64,000 nt of DNA from Bryobacterales bacterium (lineage in GTDB: Bacteria > Acidobacteriota > Terriglobia > Bryobacterales > Bryobacteraceae), in assembly GCA_003164035.1 (NCBI GenBank), contig PLRS01000071.1, positions 62,001 through 126,000 on the forward strand, in the 5' to 3' direction. Shown piece by piece: positions 5,246 to 62,063 of the stretch (the stretch's first letter is position 1; each line of letters begins with the position of its first letter). A program made the position numbers and the translations under genes. The notes below the pieces were generated by a model that saw only the letters and a list, made by a program, of their open reading frames with translations, ran no database searches and was not told the origin of the DNA.

Positions 5246-5839
5246 ATGAAGACCAAACAGAAAATGGTGTCCGAATTTCGCCGAGCGGAAATCGTCGATG
5301 CCGCGCGATCGGTATTCGCGCGCAAGGGATTTGCCGGCGGGATCGTGGATGAGATCGCCAACGAGGCGGGAATCGCAAAGGGAACCGTCTACCTCTACTT
5401 CCGGTCCAAAAAGGAGATCTATCGAGCCGTTCTGGACCGGGATATGGAGTTTTCGAAAAAGGGCACGCTGGAACGGATGGATGCGGCCGGCAATCTGAAG
5501 GATAAAATCCGGGCGTTCACGCTGGCCCGGCTCGAAAACGCGGAGGCCAAGAAAGAATTCTTTCGGATCATGGACGCCGAATTCGGGAGCGTGTCTTTCA
5601 CCCGAAGCCAGTACCGCGACTGGCTCCGCGAACCCGTGCTGCGATTGGCCTCGGCCATCGAGGACGCGGCGCGGCGGGGCGAGATTCGGCCGGTACCCTC
5701 CGAAAAGATTGCATGGCTTGTCGCCGATATGACCAGGGGAACGATTCGGCGAAGGCTGTTAGGACGAAGCGATACGCCGCCAGGCGAGGACGCGGAGCTT
5801 CTGGTCGGCTTCACTTGGGCAGCCCTGGCGGCCGAGTGA
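5246..5839 (+). CDS. TetR/AcrR family transcriptional regulator
   Basis: A 197-residue repressor of the TetR fold. The start is set at ATG 5246 because GGAG precedes it by a few bases and the protein then begins directly with the DNA-binding domain. The upstream open stretch is the palindromic repeat. The helix-turn-helix is at about residues 12-55 (IVDAARSVFARKGFAGGIVD...GIAKGTVYLYFRSKKE). The rest is the ligand-binding/dimer domain, which is too variable to predict a ligand. It diverges from the MFS exporter, the classical arrangement for a drug-responsive repressor and its pump. Confidence 0.93.
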   Translation: MKTKQKMVSEFRRAEIVDAARSVFARKGFAGGIVDEIANEAGIAKGTVYLYFRSKKEIYRAVLDRDMEFSKKGTLERMDAAGNLKDKIRAFTLARLENAEAKKEFFRIMDAEFGSVSFTRSQYRDWLREPVLRLASAIEDAARRGEIRPVPSEKIAWLVADMTRGTIRRRLLGRSDTPPGEDAELLVGFTWAALAAE

Positions 5840-6232
5840 GGGCGGGGAAGCGAACGCAGCTGAGACGCCAGTTCGATGCGCAGCAACAGTCGGGCTGCTA
5901 GTGGAGATCGAGCAACTTCAACTGCACGGGGAACGCAAGAATTCAGCAGACGCCGGGCGGAATGCCATTTCACTTGAACTTAAGCGAGACGGGAGCGGAC
6001 GGAACGTTTTCTAAGAATTTCGTATCGCTGAAAACGTTCCGTCTGTCCCCGCGTTCCCGTCCCCGCGTTCCGCCCGTCTCCGGGCCGCGCTGGGCAGCAG
6101 AAGTCGAGACGGCGATGACACGGCCAGGTGGAATGATTCCTGCTGGCCGACGAACCGCTCGTTAGATCCCGGCCCGCGCACCTCGGCGGACACGGCGTTA
6201 CGACGAAACATCGCGCGGGTGCGCATCAGAGC
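5840..6232. other. Intergenic region with a 14-bp inverted repeat
   Basis: About 390 bases without a convincing gene. It holds a perfect inverted repeat, GACGGAACGTTTTC at 5998-6011 and GAAAACGTTCCGTC at 6030-6043 (18-base loop). This is followed by tandem GT-CCCCGCGTTC-like runs (about 6045-6080) that echo GACGGGAGC just upstream. It could be a terminator for the TetR gene or another dispersed palindrome. No T-run follows it. Confidence 0.55.
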
Positions 6233-20395: not shown

Positions 20396-21160
20396 ATGTG
20401 GACGGGAAGCCACCTGTCGCATAATGGACTAATTGTGCTCTGGCACCTGGTGTTCGAATCGGCCGCTTACTTCGTTGCCTTCCGGCTCTATCTTTCGGTG
20501 CGCCGGAGGGGCGGCGATTTCCTCGATACCCACACGCGGTGGAGTATTGTGCTGGCGGCCATCGCGGGGGCGGCTATCGGCTCGAAGGTGCTCTTCTGGG
20601 CGGAAGACCCCGTGCGCACGCTGCATAACGGGACCAATCTCGAATACCTGCTGGGGGGTAAGACGGTGGTGGGTGCGATCCTGGGCGGCACGCTGGCGGT
20701 GGAGTGGATGAAACGCCGGCTTCGCGTTGCCCGGCGGACCGGGGATCTGTTCGCCGTGCCGCTCGCCATCGGCATCGCGATCGGGCGAATCGGCTGCACC
20801 CTGGCGGGCGTCCATGACGACACCCACGGCGTCGCGACGGCCCTGCCGTGGGGCATCGATTTCGGCGATGGCATCCGCCGCCATCCGGTGCAACTCTACG
20901 AGAGCGCCGCCATGGTGCTGCTGGCGCTGGGGTTGCGGCGCATCGGGCCGCCGCGATTCGCCGAAGGCGACCGTTTTCGGGTGTTTCTACTGGCCTATTG
21001 CGGATGGCGCGTGCTGATCGACTTTCTCAAGCCCGGCGTGCGCTTTCTGGGACTGACCGCTCTGCAGTGGTGCTCGCTGGCGGCGATGCTCTGGTATACA
21101 AAGGATCTGGTGCGCATGCTGCAACGTAGCGCCTGGAGGAGCGAGGTGGTCCATGTCTGA
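20396..21160 (+). CDS. Divergent prolipoprotein diacylglyceryl transferase (Lgt)-like membrane enzyme
   Basis: A 254-residue polytopic protein with the Lgt fold signatures GIAIGRIGCTLAGVHDD and RRHPVQLYES. True Lgt moves diacylglycerol from phosphatidylglycerol to lipoprotein cysteines. Two residues needed in E. coli Lgt appear changed. The Asn in GRxGNF is Cys (GRIGC), and the His of SFHGG is Val (KTVVGAILGG). So it probably does a related lipid reaction, not normal lipoprotein modification. GCGGGGTGAT precedes the ATG. It overlaps the Tes-like radical SAM gene by eight bases, which points to a shared lipid pathway. Confidence 0.82.
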   Translation: MWTGSHLSHNGLIVLWHLVFESAAYFVAFRLYLSVRRRGGDFLDTHTRWSIVLAAIAGAAIGSKVLFWAEDPVRTLHNGTNLEYLLGGKTVVGAILGGTLAVEWMKRRLRVARRTGDLFAVPLAIGIAIGRIGCTLAGVHDDTHGVATALPWGIDFGDGIRRHPVQLYESAAMVLLALGLRRIGPPRFAEGDRFRVFLLAYCGWRVLIDFLKPGVRFLGLTALQWCSLAAMLWYTKDLVRMLQRSAWRSEVVHV

Positions 21161-22589
21161 CCGGGTTCGTCCCTACCTGTTTTACGATACGGCCATTTCC
21201 ATCTGCTCCACTTGTTACCGGCGCGCGGAAGGCAAGATCGTTTTCGAGGACGGCTGCGTTTACCTTTTGAAGCGCTGCCCGGTTCACGGCCCGGAACGCG
21301 TGCTGATGGCCGACGACATCGATTATTACCGCCGCTCGCGCGAGATTTTTCTGAAGGCGCCGGAGATGCCGCGGCACTACAACACGCCAGTGCGGTGGGA
21401 CTGCCCTTACGACTGCGGCCTCTGTACCGACCACGAACAGCATTCGTGCCTGACGCTGATCGAGATCACCGACCACTGTAACCTGGAATGCCCCGTCTGC
21501 TACGCCGCCAGCGGCCCGTCTCGGCCCCAATACCGCTCGCTGGAGCAAATCGCGGCCATGCTCGACGCGGTGGTCGGCAACGAAGGCGAGCCCGACGTGG
21601 TGCAGATTTCCGGCGGCGAGCCCACCCTTCACCCGGATTTCTTCGCCGTGCTGGATATGGCCCGCGAGCGCCCCATCCGGCACCTGATGCTCAATACCAA
21701 CGGCATCCGCATCGCTCGGGAGGATGGCTTCGCCGAGCGGCTGGCCGGCTACATGCCCGACTTCGAAATCTACCTGCAGTTCGATTCGCTGGAGGCCGGC
21801 CCGCTGATCGATCTGCGCGGCGCCGACCTGCGAAATATCCGCCAGCGCGCGATCGAGAAGCTGAACCGGCTAGGGCTTTCGACCACGCTGGTGGTGACTT
21901 TGAAGAAGGGTGTGAACGATGGCGAAATCGGGCGGATCATCGAGTGGGCGCTGGAGCAGCCGGCGGTCCGCGGCGTGGTTCTGCAGCCGGTGCAGGCGGC
22001 GGGACGGCATGAGAACTTCGACCCCGCGCGCGACCGGCTGACGCTGACGGAAGTGCGGCGGCGCATCCTGGAGCAGACCGCGATTTTCCGCGCCGAAGAT
22101 ATCATCCCCGTCCCCTGCCACCCGGATTCGCTGGCGATGGCATACGCGCTCAAGGCGGACGGCCGGGTGGTGCCGTTGACGGGCATGATCGGCCCCAAAG
22201 TGTTGATCGAAGGCGGCCGCAATACCATCGTCTACGAAGCGGACCGCGAGTTACACAAGCAGTTATTTCGCCTGTTTTCGACGAATCACTCGCCGCAATC
22301 GAGCGCCGTGACTCTGCGCGACCTGCTCTGTTGTCTGCCGCGGGTGGCGACTCCGGACGGCATCGACTACCGCAGCGTCTTTCGCGTGATCGTCATGCAA
22401 TTCATCGATGCCTGGGGCTTCGACGTACGCAGCGTCAAGAAGAGCTGCGTGCATATCGCCCACCCCGACGGGAAGCGCATCGTCCCGTTCGACACTTACA
22501 ATCTCTTTTACCGCGACGGCCTGGAGGAAACACTGCTGGCCGGATTGCGGCGGGAACGCGAGACATCGGAGAGACTATACAAACTATGA
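21153..22589 (+). CDS. Radical SAM protein of the tetraether lipid synthase (Tes)-like group
   Basis: A 478-residue iron-sulfur enzyme. Cysteines in order: CSTC (18, 21) plus C35 and C42, a rubredoxin-like set. CPYDCGLC (84-91) and C99 suit an auxiliary cluster. CNLECPVC (109-116) is the radical SAM CX3CX2C, followed by ISGGEPTLHP for SAM binding. The C-terminal block has SVKKSCVHIAHPDGKRI and FDTYNLFYRDG. This order matches what I know of Tes (M. jannaschii MJ0619), which joins lipid tails to make membrane-spanning tetraethers. Acidobacteria are known to make membrane-spanning iso-diabolic acid lipids. The radical SAM call is firm; Tes-like is recognition, not a search. Flanked by overlapping membrane-protein genes. 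Confidence 0.8.
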   Translation: MSDRVRPYLFYDTAISICSTCYRRAEGKIVFEDGCVYLLKRCPVHGPERVLMADDIDYYRRSREIFLKAPEMPRHYNTPVRWDCPYDCGLCTDHEQHSCLTLIEITDHCNLECPVCYAASGPSRPQYRSLEQIAAMLDAVVGNEGEPDVVQISGGEPTLHPDFFAVLDMARERPIRHLMLNTNGIRIAREDGFAERLAGYMPDFEIYLQFDSLEAGPLIDLRGADLRNIRQRAIEKLNRLGLSTTLVVTLKKGVNDGEIGRIIEWALEQPAVRGVVLQPVQAAGRHENFDPARDRLTLTEVRRRILEQTAIFRAEDIIPVPCHPDSLAMAYALKADGRVVPLTGMIGPKVLIEGGRNTIVYEADRELHKQLFRLFSTNHSPQSSAVTLRDLLCCLPRVATPDGIDYRSVFRVIVMQFIDAWGFDVRSVKKSCVHIAHPDGKRIVPFDTYNLFYRDGLEETLLAGLRRERETSERLYKL

Positions 22590-22855
22590 CTCCAGCGGCG
22601 CCGAACGACAGCATCGGGAGAGGCGTTCTGATCGCGGTGGCGTGGCAGGTGGGCGCCATCATCATTACCATTCCGCTGATGTGCACGATTTGGGGCGTGG
22701 TGCAGTGGGCCGCGCTGATCCCGGTGTACCTGTCCCAAAGAAAGAGAGGCTACCGGTTGGCCGCCAAGGGCCTGCTGATCACGGGATTTGTGGGAGTACT
22801 GCTGAATGCGACGTGCGCGGCGTTGATATTAGGGAACCTGGGGAATATGCACTGA
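22586..22855 (+). CDS. Small two-helix membrane protein coupled to the Tes-like gene
   Basis: An 89-residue protein starting at ATG 22586, overlapping the radical SAM stop by four bases (ATGA). Two hydrophobic segments (GVLIAVAWQVGAIIITIPLM and AAKGLLITGFVGVLLNATCA) are separated by a basic loop (SQRKRGYRL). No known domain. The position suggests a membrane partner for the lipid-modifying enzymes upstream. Confidence 0.75.
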   Translation: MTPAAPNDSIGRGVLIAVAWQVGAIIITIPLMCTIWGVVQWAALIPVYLSQRKRGYRLAAKGLLITGFVGVLLNATCAALILGNLGNMH

Positions 22856-60690: not shown

Positions 60691-62063
60691 GGCTGGTCCT
60701 CGATCAGGAACTGCTCGTATTTGCCGTCGGCCAGCAGATACAGATTCAGGTTCAGCGCCTTGCGCGCGAATTGGGTGCGATAGGAACGATGGGTCATGCC
60801 GCCGCGCAGGTTTTCGCCGACGGGCGTCACGGAGTTCAGCTTGCCCAGCGGGCCGAGCGATGTTCGGCAATCGCGCAGGGCGACCTCGCTGAAATAAGTG
60901 TTGGCGTTGGCGCTGAACAGGGCGCGGTCGATGCGGCCTTTTTGCAGACCCTCCAGAACGGCTTGAACCTGGTGCGTGTCGCTATCGGGCGGGGCCTTGT
61001 CCTCGGGCACGAAAACCAGGGTCGCAATTTGCCGGGCGAGCGGGCCCACCATGTTGACCACGTCCTGGTTCGAGAGCACCACGACCGCGCCCGCGCGGGT
61101 CGGCAATACGGTGTTGGAAGAGATGAAGCCGCTCACTTCGCCGCCGTGCTGCAGCACGGGTATGCCGGCGATTTCGCCCAGACTCAAGCCCAGCGCGTAG
61201 TGCGTGGAGTCGCCATTGGCGAGCTTCACTTCGCGGGTGAATTCCTGGTAGGAGCGCTCCGACAGAATCTTCTTTTCGAGCAACGCGATGTCCCATTTGG
61301 CCAGGTCCGAAGGCGTCATGGCCAGTTCGCCGGCGGCAAAATACCAGCCCTCGGCTTCGCGCTTGACAGGCCGCGGCGGACCGAGCGCGTAGCGCGTATA
61401 GGCCTTCGCGTCGGCAGCTTGCTCCGGCGGCCAATCGGACGCCGATTGCATCCCCAGCGGCTGAAAGATCTTCTCGCGCAGGAAGGCGACCAGCGGCTGG
61501 CCAGAAACCTTTTCGAAGATCCGGCCGGCCAGCACGAAGTTGGTGTTGCTGTACTGCCACTTGGTGCCGGGGTCGAAGTTGAGCGGCTTCTTCGCCCAAC
61601 CGTCGATCACCGCCAGCGGGGTGGTGGGCCGCGTCCAATCCGGAATGATGTAATCCTGCGGGGCGTAATCCTCATAGCCCGAAGTGTGCGAGAGGAGCTG
61701 ACGGATGGTGATTTCATCGGCTCGCGTCAGCTTGGGAAAATACTTGGCCACGCGGTCGTCGAGCGACAACTTGCCCTGCTCTTGAAGCAGCAGCAACGCC
61801 GCCGCGGTAAATTGTTTCGAGATTGAGCCGACGGCGTAGCGGGTGTTGACGTTGGCGGGCCTCTGGGCGGCGAGATCGGCGCTGCCGAAAGCTTTGGCGT
61901 AGAAGAGTCTTCCGTCCTTCACGACGGCCACGGAAACGCTTGGCGCGCCGGCTTTCCGGAGCGCGGAGGAAATCGTCCCGTCGAGCTTCTTATCGAGATC
62001 GCCTGGCGCCTGCCCCGCGAGCGGAAGGGCAGCGATGGCGAGAAGGATTAGCCTGCGGCGCAC
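60687..62063 (-). CDS. Secreted serine hydrolase (class C beta-lactamase / PBP-like)
   Basis: A 458-residue protein. The start is taken as GTG 62063 (VRRRLILLAIAALPLAGQ, a signal peptide); longer frames read through the family B repeat. The nucleophile is in VGSISKQFTAAA (SxxK), the YxN motif is WQYSNTNF and the third motif LQHGGEVSGF. It is probably a peptidase or esterase of the beta-lactamase fold rather than an antibiotic enzyme. It is the first gene of the transcript with the methyltransferase and Memo gene. Its start codon lies at the edge of a repeat. Confidence 0.88.
   Translation of the reverse strand: MRRRLILLAIAALPLAGQAPGDLDKKLDGTISSALRKAGAPSVSVAVVKDGRLFYAKAFGSADLAAQRPANVNTRYAVGSISKQFTAAALLLLQEQGKLSLDDRVAKYFPKLTRADEITIRQLLSHTSGYEDYAPQDYIIPDWTRPTTPLAVIDGWAKKPLNFDPGTKWQYSNTNFVLAGRIFEKVSGQPLVAFLREKIFQPLGMQSASDWPPEQAADAKAYTRYALGPPRPVKREAEGWYFAAGELAMTPSDLAKWDIALLEKKILSERSYQEFTREVKLANGDSTHYALGLSLGEIAGIPVLQHGGEVSGFISSNTVLPTRAGAVVVLSNQDVVNMVGPLARQIATLVFVPEDKAPPDSDTHQVQAVLEGLQKGRIDRALFSANANTYFSEVALRDCRTSLGPLGKLNSVTPVGENLRGGMTHRSYRTQFARKALNLNLYLLADGKYEQFLIEDQP

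Follow-up and report, generated by a model that had tools for sequence, protein, structure and literature searches.

Tes, or GDGT-MAS (MJ0619; structures 7TOL and 7TOM, model NF045702), is a radical S-adenosylmethionine (SAM) enzyme that couples lipid tails, and its structure, which contains lipids, was reported by Lloyd et al. (PMC9433317). The passages of that paper used here describe a rubredoxin iron bound by the motif C9X2C12X20C33X2H36, an N-terminal cluster on C73, C77, C80 and a His, a radical SAM cluster, and a C-terminal cluster for which a labile Met439 is the one ligand named; they also state that tail coupling proceeds via a bond between a lipid carbon and a cluster sulfur, with the C-terminal cluster within reach, and that Met439 and Tyr459 are invariant among 1000 archaeal homologues. 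Bacterial Tes homologues have been proposed for branched glycerol dialkyl glycerol tetraethers (brGDGT) (Zeng et al., PMC8941075; Halamka et al., PMC10087280), and surveys of environmental genomes tally them as possible evidence for the production of these lipids (PMC8941075, PMC11868695). PMC11868695 includes Tes as well as Mss in its counts and notes that experimental confirmation of the bacterial Tes homologues is lacking, PMC13274423 presents a pathway built on Mss and Ger, and TrsS appears in PMC13188914 only as the name of a selenoprotein family. We studied a stretch of 64,000 nucleotides from a Bryobacterales bacterium (the window; positions 62,001 to 126,000 of the forward strand of contig PLRS01000071.1, assembly GCA_003164035.1), in which an original prediction had pointed to an operon of an Lgt-like gene, a Tes-like radical SAM gene and a gene for a small membrane protein, and had read it as a module dedicated to membrane-spanning lipids. 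As described below, Lgt-fold proteins and radical SAM proteins of the Tes/TrsS superfamily are inherited together, at most loci accompanied by small membrane proteins (one or several) whose cysteine-bearing helix is predicted to run N-in/C-out.

The observation as such is confirmed here. Three open reading frames (ORFs) follow one another on the plus strand, as do all the features described below (20396-21160, 21153-22589 and 22586-22855; 254, 478 and 89 aa, the last with the ATG at 22586 taken as its start), and they overlap by 8 bp (genes 1 and 2) and 4 bp (genes 2 and 3), in agreement with the coupled operon that had been proposed. Pfam searches matched gene 1 to LGT (PF01790, 79 bits, cut-off 24.9) and gene 2 to Radical_SAM (PF04055) plus an N-terminal Zn_ribbon_HMPTM, and gave no match for the 89 aa product of gene 3. 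The order of cysteines in gene 2 was also as predicted: C18-X2-C21-X20-C42-X2-H45, C84/C88/C91 plus H94, C109/C113/C116 and SCVHIAHPDGKRI. The partners had been called undescribed, and neither the Lgt-like/radical SAM pair nor the trio with the small protein was found described in the leading results of broad literature searches; radical SAM and Lgt terms both occur in a paper on the annotation of H. influenzae proteins (PMC3877243).

Co-inheritance and distribution of the module

Neighbourhoods were compared at 102 loci collected via the radical SAM protein (the window, L041, L076-L095 and L096-L175), a set in which at least two locus pairs look, from length and organism group, like the same contig (L086/L116 and L090/L132) and related strains are not independent. 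The Lgt-like gene lay within the locus stretch at 89 of the 102, more than chance would give, which bears out the expectation of a kept neighbourhood, and it adjoins the radical SAM gene across phyla. At 61 of these 89 loci the radical SAM start fell between 35 nt before and 120 nt after the end of lgt; the gap measured 121-1500 nt at 20, and 8 were otherwise placed, three of them with an overlap of 76 nt. For 11 loci with no near Lgt-like gene, a distal copy was found in six genomes (E 1e-49 or better, one copy cut by a contig end) and a weaker, stop-bearing one in a seventh (1e-28). The remaining four, together with genomes G292 and G413, gave LGT matches of 1e-9 to 1e-21, which we take as ordinary Lgt or other LGT proteins.

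The same association was found when presence was scored across 396 Acidobacteriota genomes: 20 had both genes, two the radical SAM gene only, two the Lgt-like gene only and 372 neither (Fisher p 2e-29, uncorrected for kinship). Two of the exceptions lie at contig ends (G413, radical SAM only; G075, Lgt-like only), in G292 the radical SAM gene is frame-broken, and in G252 a divergent radical SAM protein (37% identity) is encoded beside the Lgt-like gene. Moreover, the pairwise distances of the radical SAM and Lgt-like proteins were correlated over 49 loci (r 0.82, with none of 2000 permutations as high), which shows common descent of the pair and speaks only in part for their interaction. A joint function of the module genes is thus very likely. 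Other neighbours recurred far less: an ORF comparison of 101 loci, which set aside the radical SAM and Lgt-like clusters and the larger clusters read as other-frame ORFs over them, yielded at most a short-chain-dehydrogenase-like family at 10 loci and a Cys-rich upstream protein at 7. A defence system was considered and rejected: in PADLOC the radical SAM domain matched nothing beyond viperin, and that weakly (45 and 39 bits). The divergent module of G252 (contig C448, L206 1677-4857) comprises the radical SAM protein, an ICMT/PEMT-like membrane methyltransferase, a DUF4395 protein and the Lgt-like protein.

Within a set of 61 genomes (the window genome and 60 relatives), a close copy of the radical SAM gene was found elsewhere only in G014, where its frame is broken at an assembly NN, and G037 holds a 38% relative. 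In G014 a gene that by eye resembles a fatty acid desaturase converges on the module (L041 3800-4846). Across the 396 Acidobacteriota genomes the radical SAM gene was present in 22 (at least 62% identity, E 1e-148 or better). A scan of named genomes confirmed 580 relatives, of which the best 80 were used, so that the sample favours close ones; by record title these 80 belonged to ten bacterial phyla, plus two Poseidoniales-type archaeal metagenome-assembled genomes (MAGs). They included Acidobacteria, Cyanobacteria, Bacteroidota (among them Chitinophaga), Planctomycetota, Proteobacteria, Myxococcota, Omnitrophota, Elusimicrobia, Methylacidiphilales and, within Bacillota, Paenibacillus, Brevibacillus, Aeribacillus, Fictibacillus, Saccharibacillus, Cohnella and a record titled Bacillus subtilis. 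MAG bins may be impure; isolates represent Bacillota, Proteobacteria, Bacteroidota, Cyanobacteria and Acidobacteria. With relatives in so many other phyla among these best 80, the idea of an acidobacterial speciality was rejected.

The radical SAM protein compared with Tes and TrsS

The product of gene 2 was assigned to the Tes/TrsS superfamily by its Pfam and NCBIfam matches and by its fold. Its AF2 model (pLDDT 88.2, with residues 354-363 and 393-396 under 50) matched GDGT-MAS 7TOM over the whole fold (E 2.8e-39, TMq 0.79, root mean square deviation (rmsd) 4.7), so the structure comparison upholds the Tes-like fold that had been predicted, and the closest solved structure by sequence was again GDGT-MAS (7TOL; 220.9 bits over two separate segments, rising to 302 bits when the family profile was used). 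An alignment of 63 sequences, the window protein and those from 62 of the 80 loci, showed that the N-terminal sites of Tes are kept. The rubredoxin-like site C18, C21, C42 and H45 (21204..21287) has the exact CX2CX20CX2H spacing, with Cys in 63/63 at each cysteine position and, at H45, His in 61 and Cys in 2; the auxiliary [4Fe-4S] site C84, C88, C91 and H94, with H97 beside it (21402..21443), has the three cysteines and the His of Tes in 63/63 at each position; and the CX3CX2C radical SAM motif C109/C113/C116 (21477..21500; PF04055) is likewise kept in 63/63.

The C-terminal half is different. In the 13 Tes rows C338, Met439, C455, Tyr459 and C470 are all kept (13/13), and from this conservation C338, C455 and C470 are presumably the ligands of the Tes C-terminal cluster. 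In the module's family, position 431, at the Cys455 place, holds S in 50, T in 12 and A in 1; position 435, at the Tyr459 place, I in 60, M in 2 and F in 1; and position 447, at the Cys470 place, D in 48 and E in 15, so that Cys, Tyr and Cys, respectively, never occur there. The window protein has Ser and Ile at the Cys455 and Tyr459 places, and its C-terminal block (S431-C432-V-H-I435...P-F-D447, 22443..22493) reads PFDTYN against PFCxYN in Tes, a difference beyond the reading of the original prediction. The Cys338 place (position 326) is Cys in only 28/63, being Ser in the window protein, whereas the Met439 place keeps M in 47 (V in 15, I in 1), including the window protein. The pairing of Met439 with Tyr459 and the cysteines of the C-terminal [Fe4S4] cluster are thus both absent from the family as sets. 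The C-terminal domain is also shorter than in Tes: the segment that runs in Tes from PVP to the HQHC block is missing, and at the corresponding point the module's protein has C322 (22116..22118, Cys in 63/63) at the start of a PVPC-HPD block where the Tes insert is longer. On the other hand, it carries a pair typical of its family, C393-C394 (22329..22334, each Cys in 60/63 and in 0/13 Tes rows), and C432 is Cys in 63/63; C322, C432 and the pair may bind a cluster in another way. Since the Tes C-terminal cluster cannot be built here with the same ligands, the enzyme probably does not join lipids tail to tail, and such coupling by the module is unlikely. The divergent radical SAM protein of G252 has also lost the PFC cysteine (PFS). 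The original prediction had stated that best matches to some other radical SAM family, one lacking the auxiliary cysteines, would speak against it; this holds for the C-terminal cluster, whose cysteines are lost, and not for the N-terminal one, whose cysteines are kept.

Family models and phylogeny agreed with this picture. The window protein scored 260 bits against the Tes model NF045702, below the curated cut-off of 450, and 309.6 bits against the TrsS model NF045646, which is the best named family but has a cut-off of 490; two relatives reached 324.7 and 316.6 bits, also under 490. We label ten further rows TrsS-like, a name of our own and not curated membership: the three that were scanned all fall below the TrsS cut-off, and one of them scores slightly better to Tes. 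In a midpoint-rooted tree of 48 rows, the 18 rows of the module's family formed one group (support 100/99) among TrsS-like rows, while Tes and a class of about 700 aa formed a 20-row group (100/99) that excludes it, and a branch with support 100/99 separated the Tes side from the TrsS-like side. Eight of the ten TrsS-like rows fell on the module's side and two on the Tes side, several of their branches being long, flagged and unsure in placement. The TrsS-like rows share C322 and C432 with the module (10/10 each), but nine of the ten keep the PFC cysteine that the module has lost. They differ also in neighbourhood, since each of two TrsS-like relatives in annotated records is followed by a methyltransferase gene (L177 5971-8339, on a Mycolicibacterium plasmid; L178 5974-8137, on a haloarchaeal plasmid). 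Thioredoxin and low-molecular-weight phosphatase genes lie near one of them, and CcdA and disulfide oxidoreductase genes near the other; in the haloarchaeal plasmid the phosphatase gene precedes the TrsS-like gene.

Cut-off, ligands, clade and genome distribution all spoke against membership of the window protein in Tes, which was therefore rejected. As to genome distribution, Tes over the cut-off was present in 39/396 Acidobacteriota genomes but in only one of the 22 module carriers, the window genome itself, and in none of 21 tested carriers, 20 of which are outside Acidobacteria by title. The Tes of the window genome is encoded on another contig (C88, L002 716-2401), scores 573.3 bits against the cut-off of 450 and aligns nearly end to end with 7TOL (439.8 bits), which makes it a far better tetraether candidate in this organism than the window gene; the latter is probably not the maker of tetraether lipids. 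The class of about 700 aa (for example L022-L026, L033 and L034) is represented by matches in some 49 genomes out of 61, by our count from open-frame length and identity. Its seven tree rows lie inside the Tes clade and keep C338, M439, C455, Y459 and C470 (7/7), with the N-terminal cluster cysteines missing, and the window genome has a member that we read as split over contigs C50 and C32 (L003, L004). Being so widely present, this class may be what synthesises iso-diabolic acid in these Acidobacteria.

The Lgt-fold partner and the small membrane proteins

The AF2 model of the 254 aa integral membrane protein (pLDDT 92.5) had as its closest fold E. coli Lgt 5AZB (Foldseek E 1.6e-6, TMq 0.60), and a structural alignment with it covered 231 residues (Z 13.9, rmsd 4.7; next best 7.2), in support of the predicted Lgt-like nature of gene 1. 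Apart from the fold, the protein has in common with Lgt the RHPxQLYE block, an Asp or Glu at the Glu243 place and the equivalents of Arg143 and Arg239, both of which are kept in 53/53 sequences of an alignment made of the window and 52 of the 69 loci with an Lgt-like match. It differs at positions that may matter for catalysis. V92 (20669..20671) occupies the place of Lgt His103, which is V in 48, I in 3 and L in 2 and never His, and within R131-C134 (20786..20797) R131 corresponds to Arg143 and C134 to the place of Asn146, each of the two being kept in 53/53; the Glu151 place is Leu in the family consensus. We take His103 and Asn146 to be catalytic in Lgt, in a numbering that agrees with the printed chain positions less one. 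The protein stays below both equivalog cut-offs, with 35.2 of 118.9 bits for TIGR00544 and 56.5 of 334 bits for NF000778. A separate LGT protein of 205 bits is taken as the ordinary Lgt of the window genome. A third LGT-family protein of that genome has 400 aa and a GRIGCLKVGCCHG motif (contig C109, L044 6619-7821), and its gene sits behind a long gene of unrelated look.

The third part of the module, the 89 aa protein (22586..22855), belongs to the main small-protein type, whose profile, built with this protein among its rows, matched it in the window genome with E 1.2e-22 and nothing else at E<=1. In the 18 rows of this type, which were selected by an LNA-type motif adjoining the cysteine, Q40, P46, N74 and C77 are each 18/18, and C77 (22814..22816) lies in the last membrane helix (LLNATC). 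Beyond this type, an ORF with at least two predicted helices followed the radical SAM gene at 53 of 97 loci, as compared with 7 of 423 control ORFs; helices were predicted wherever mean hydropathy exceeded 1.5 in a plain 19-residue window, and the controls were open frames of at least 300 codons; some of these probably do not represent genes, which biases the control rate downward. A helix cysteine was present in 52 of the 53 small ORFs, in 48 of them in the last helix and at most 25 residues from the C-terminus. Elsewhere the architecture changes and the cysteine recurs: at Terriglobia-type loci small proteins are encoded between lgt and the radical SAM gene, and it is mostly an early helix that carries the Cys, and in one set of Paenibacillus-type loci a one-helix protein with a Cys-rich N-terminus is encoded upstream of lgt and has its Cys near the end. 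Thus, several unalike types of small protein keep a membrane cysteine. In a strict test, 65 of the 102 loci had at least one small ORF with a helix Cys and 11 had two or more, a multiplicity that is expected of substrates. The helices with Cys were predicted N-in in 79 cases, N-out in 16 and tied in 10, as against 30, 52 and 22 for those with no Cys, so that the cysteine would tend toward the outer face, where Lgt works. In the small protein of a Thalassarchaeaceae MAG, the Cys helices follow an N-terminus that by eye seems EF-hand-like (L148 near 5700-6180).

A C-terminal sorting tag borne by many proteins was considered for the small protein and rejected, because the main-type profile matched only the module in 13/13 genomes (E<1e-4), a search with a profile built partly from those same 13 genomes and with the other small types outside it. 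The main small type is accordingly a dedicated part.

Possible roles of the module

The explanation that we favour, with a probability of about 0.38, is a conserved three-part membrane-modification module in which the small membrane-cysteine protein is the substrate. That its cysteine is what becomes modified is our best guess, drawn from the recurrence, multiplication and orientation of the cysteine and from the Lgt fold of the partner. The Lgt-fold protein, with its kept arginines, would bind a phospholipid and would keep the cysteine of the small protein's helix facing the outside of the membrane, in the way that Lgt presents a lipobox cysteine; the radical SAM protein would dock from the cytosol, its 5'-deoxyadenosyl radical attacking either the lipid or the small protein, and the membrane cysteine would end lipidated or cross-linked. 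A number of observations weigh against this. The replacement of His103 by V/I/L and of Asn146 by Cys means that the ordinary thiol chemistry of Lgt cannot be assumed, and a strict lipobox is not present around the small-protein cysteine. In G252 the neighbours are the methyltransferase-like and DUF4395 proteins instead. By the first test 34/102 loci have no small ORF, although about a dozen of them have a candidate nearby, the small ORFs of L103, L149 and L151 fail the Cys test, and a single small ORF is present at 54 of the 65 passing loci. The control small ORFs number only 7, and 4 of these have a helix Cys, 2 of them in the last helix near the C-terminus. Finally, Q40, P46 and N74 are as invariant as C77, and the small protein may instead serve to anchor the complex or be one of its subunits.

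As a mere anchor for a lipid-modifying pair, the small protein would be nearly as likely as in the role of substrate. An enzyme acting on lipid only is a rival just a little less probable: the radical SAM protein would alter a phospholipid acyl chain (by dehydrogenation, sulfur insertion or a cross-linking other than tail to tail, for example), the Lgt-fold protein would present the lipid, and the small protein would be an anchor or assembly subunit. The fold shared with GDGT-MAS, whose structure holds lipids (PMC9433317), the invariant arginines and the single small ORF at most passing loci fit it, but it leaves unexplained that unlike small proteins keep the membrane cysteine, and the protein lacks the stretch that links PVP to the HQHC block in Tes. 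The module for membrane-spanning lipids of the iso-diabolic or brGDGT type, with the radical SAM protein as Tes, is improbable. The fold, the rubredoxin and N-terminal cluster motifs, the lipid-handling fold of the partner and the partial retention of Met439 and Cys338 speak for it, and Acidobacteria produce such lipids (PMC8941075, PMC10087280); yet the places of Cys455, Cys470 and Tyr459 never hold those residues, the protein is outside the Tes clade and under its cut-off, and Tes over the cut-off is encoded elsewhere in the window genome, which is the only one of the 22 acidobacterial carriers to have it, and was absent from all 21 carriers tested. The link to membrane-spanning lipids is therefore unsupported, and as a whole the interpretation given by the original prediction is only partly supported.

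The neighbours of the TrsS-like relatives (the methyltransferases, the thioredoxin with the phosphatase, and CcdA with the disulfide oxidoreductase), together with the DUF4395 and ICMT-like proteins of G252, would suit a module that produces a compound of sulfur, selenium or arsenic or renders one harmless, its membrane parts serving for export or electron supply. This is unlikely, as no such gene recurs beside the module's radical SAM family in the 101-locus comparison, and the Lgt fold and membrane cysteine would be left unexplained. That the genes are linked by shared horizontal transfer with no joint function is highly improbable: the patchy spread in Acidobacteriota and the gaps of 121-1500 nt, with larger gaps or reversed order at a few loci, could be so accounted for, but neither the close linkage at most loci, nor the distal Lgt-like copies in 6 of the 11 genomes with no near one, nor the parallel divergence of the two proteins would be expected. 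Returning to the small protein as substrate, a specific and quite unlikely form of it is that the radical SAM protein generates a lipid radical and the small protein, seated in the Lgt-fold partner, traps this radical with its thiol, to give a membrane helix covalently bonded to lipid; this would fit a radical SAM protein that has lost the ligands of the cluster where Tes is thought to park the lipid carbon.

In practical terms, the module's radical SAM family is a Tes-fold enzyme to be excluded from Tes counts, and the pattern that separates the two is PFC with HY in Tes and PFD/E with HI in the module's family. The module is highly conserved and widely spread with a steady membrane partner, which points to an unrecognised membrane modification, and since the culturable carriers include Paenibacillus and Brevibacillus it is directly testable. 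If the capture of a lipid radical were true, a lipid tail would be joined to a cysteine inside a membrane helix in a form of protein lipidation that is new and, provided that the MAG bins are right, common to bacteria and Poseidoniales archaea.

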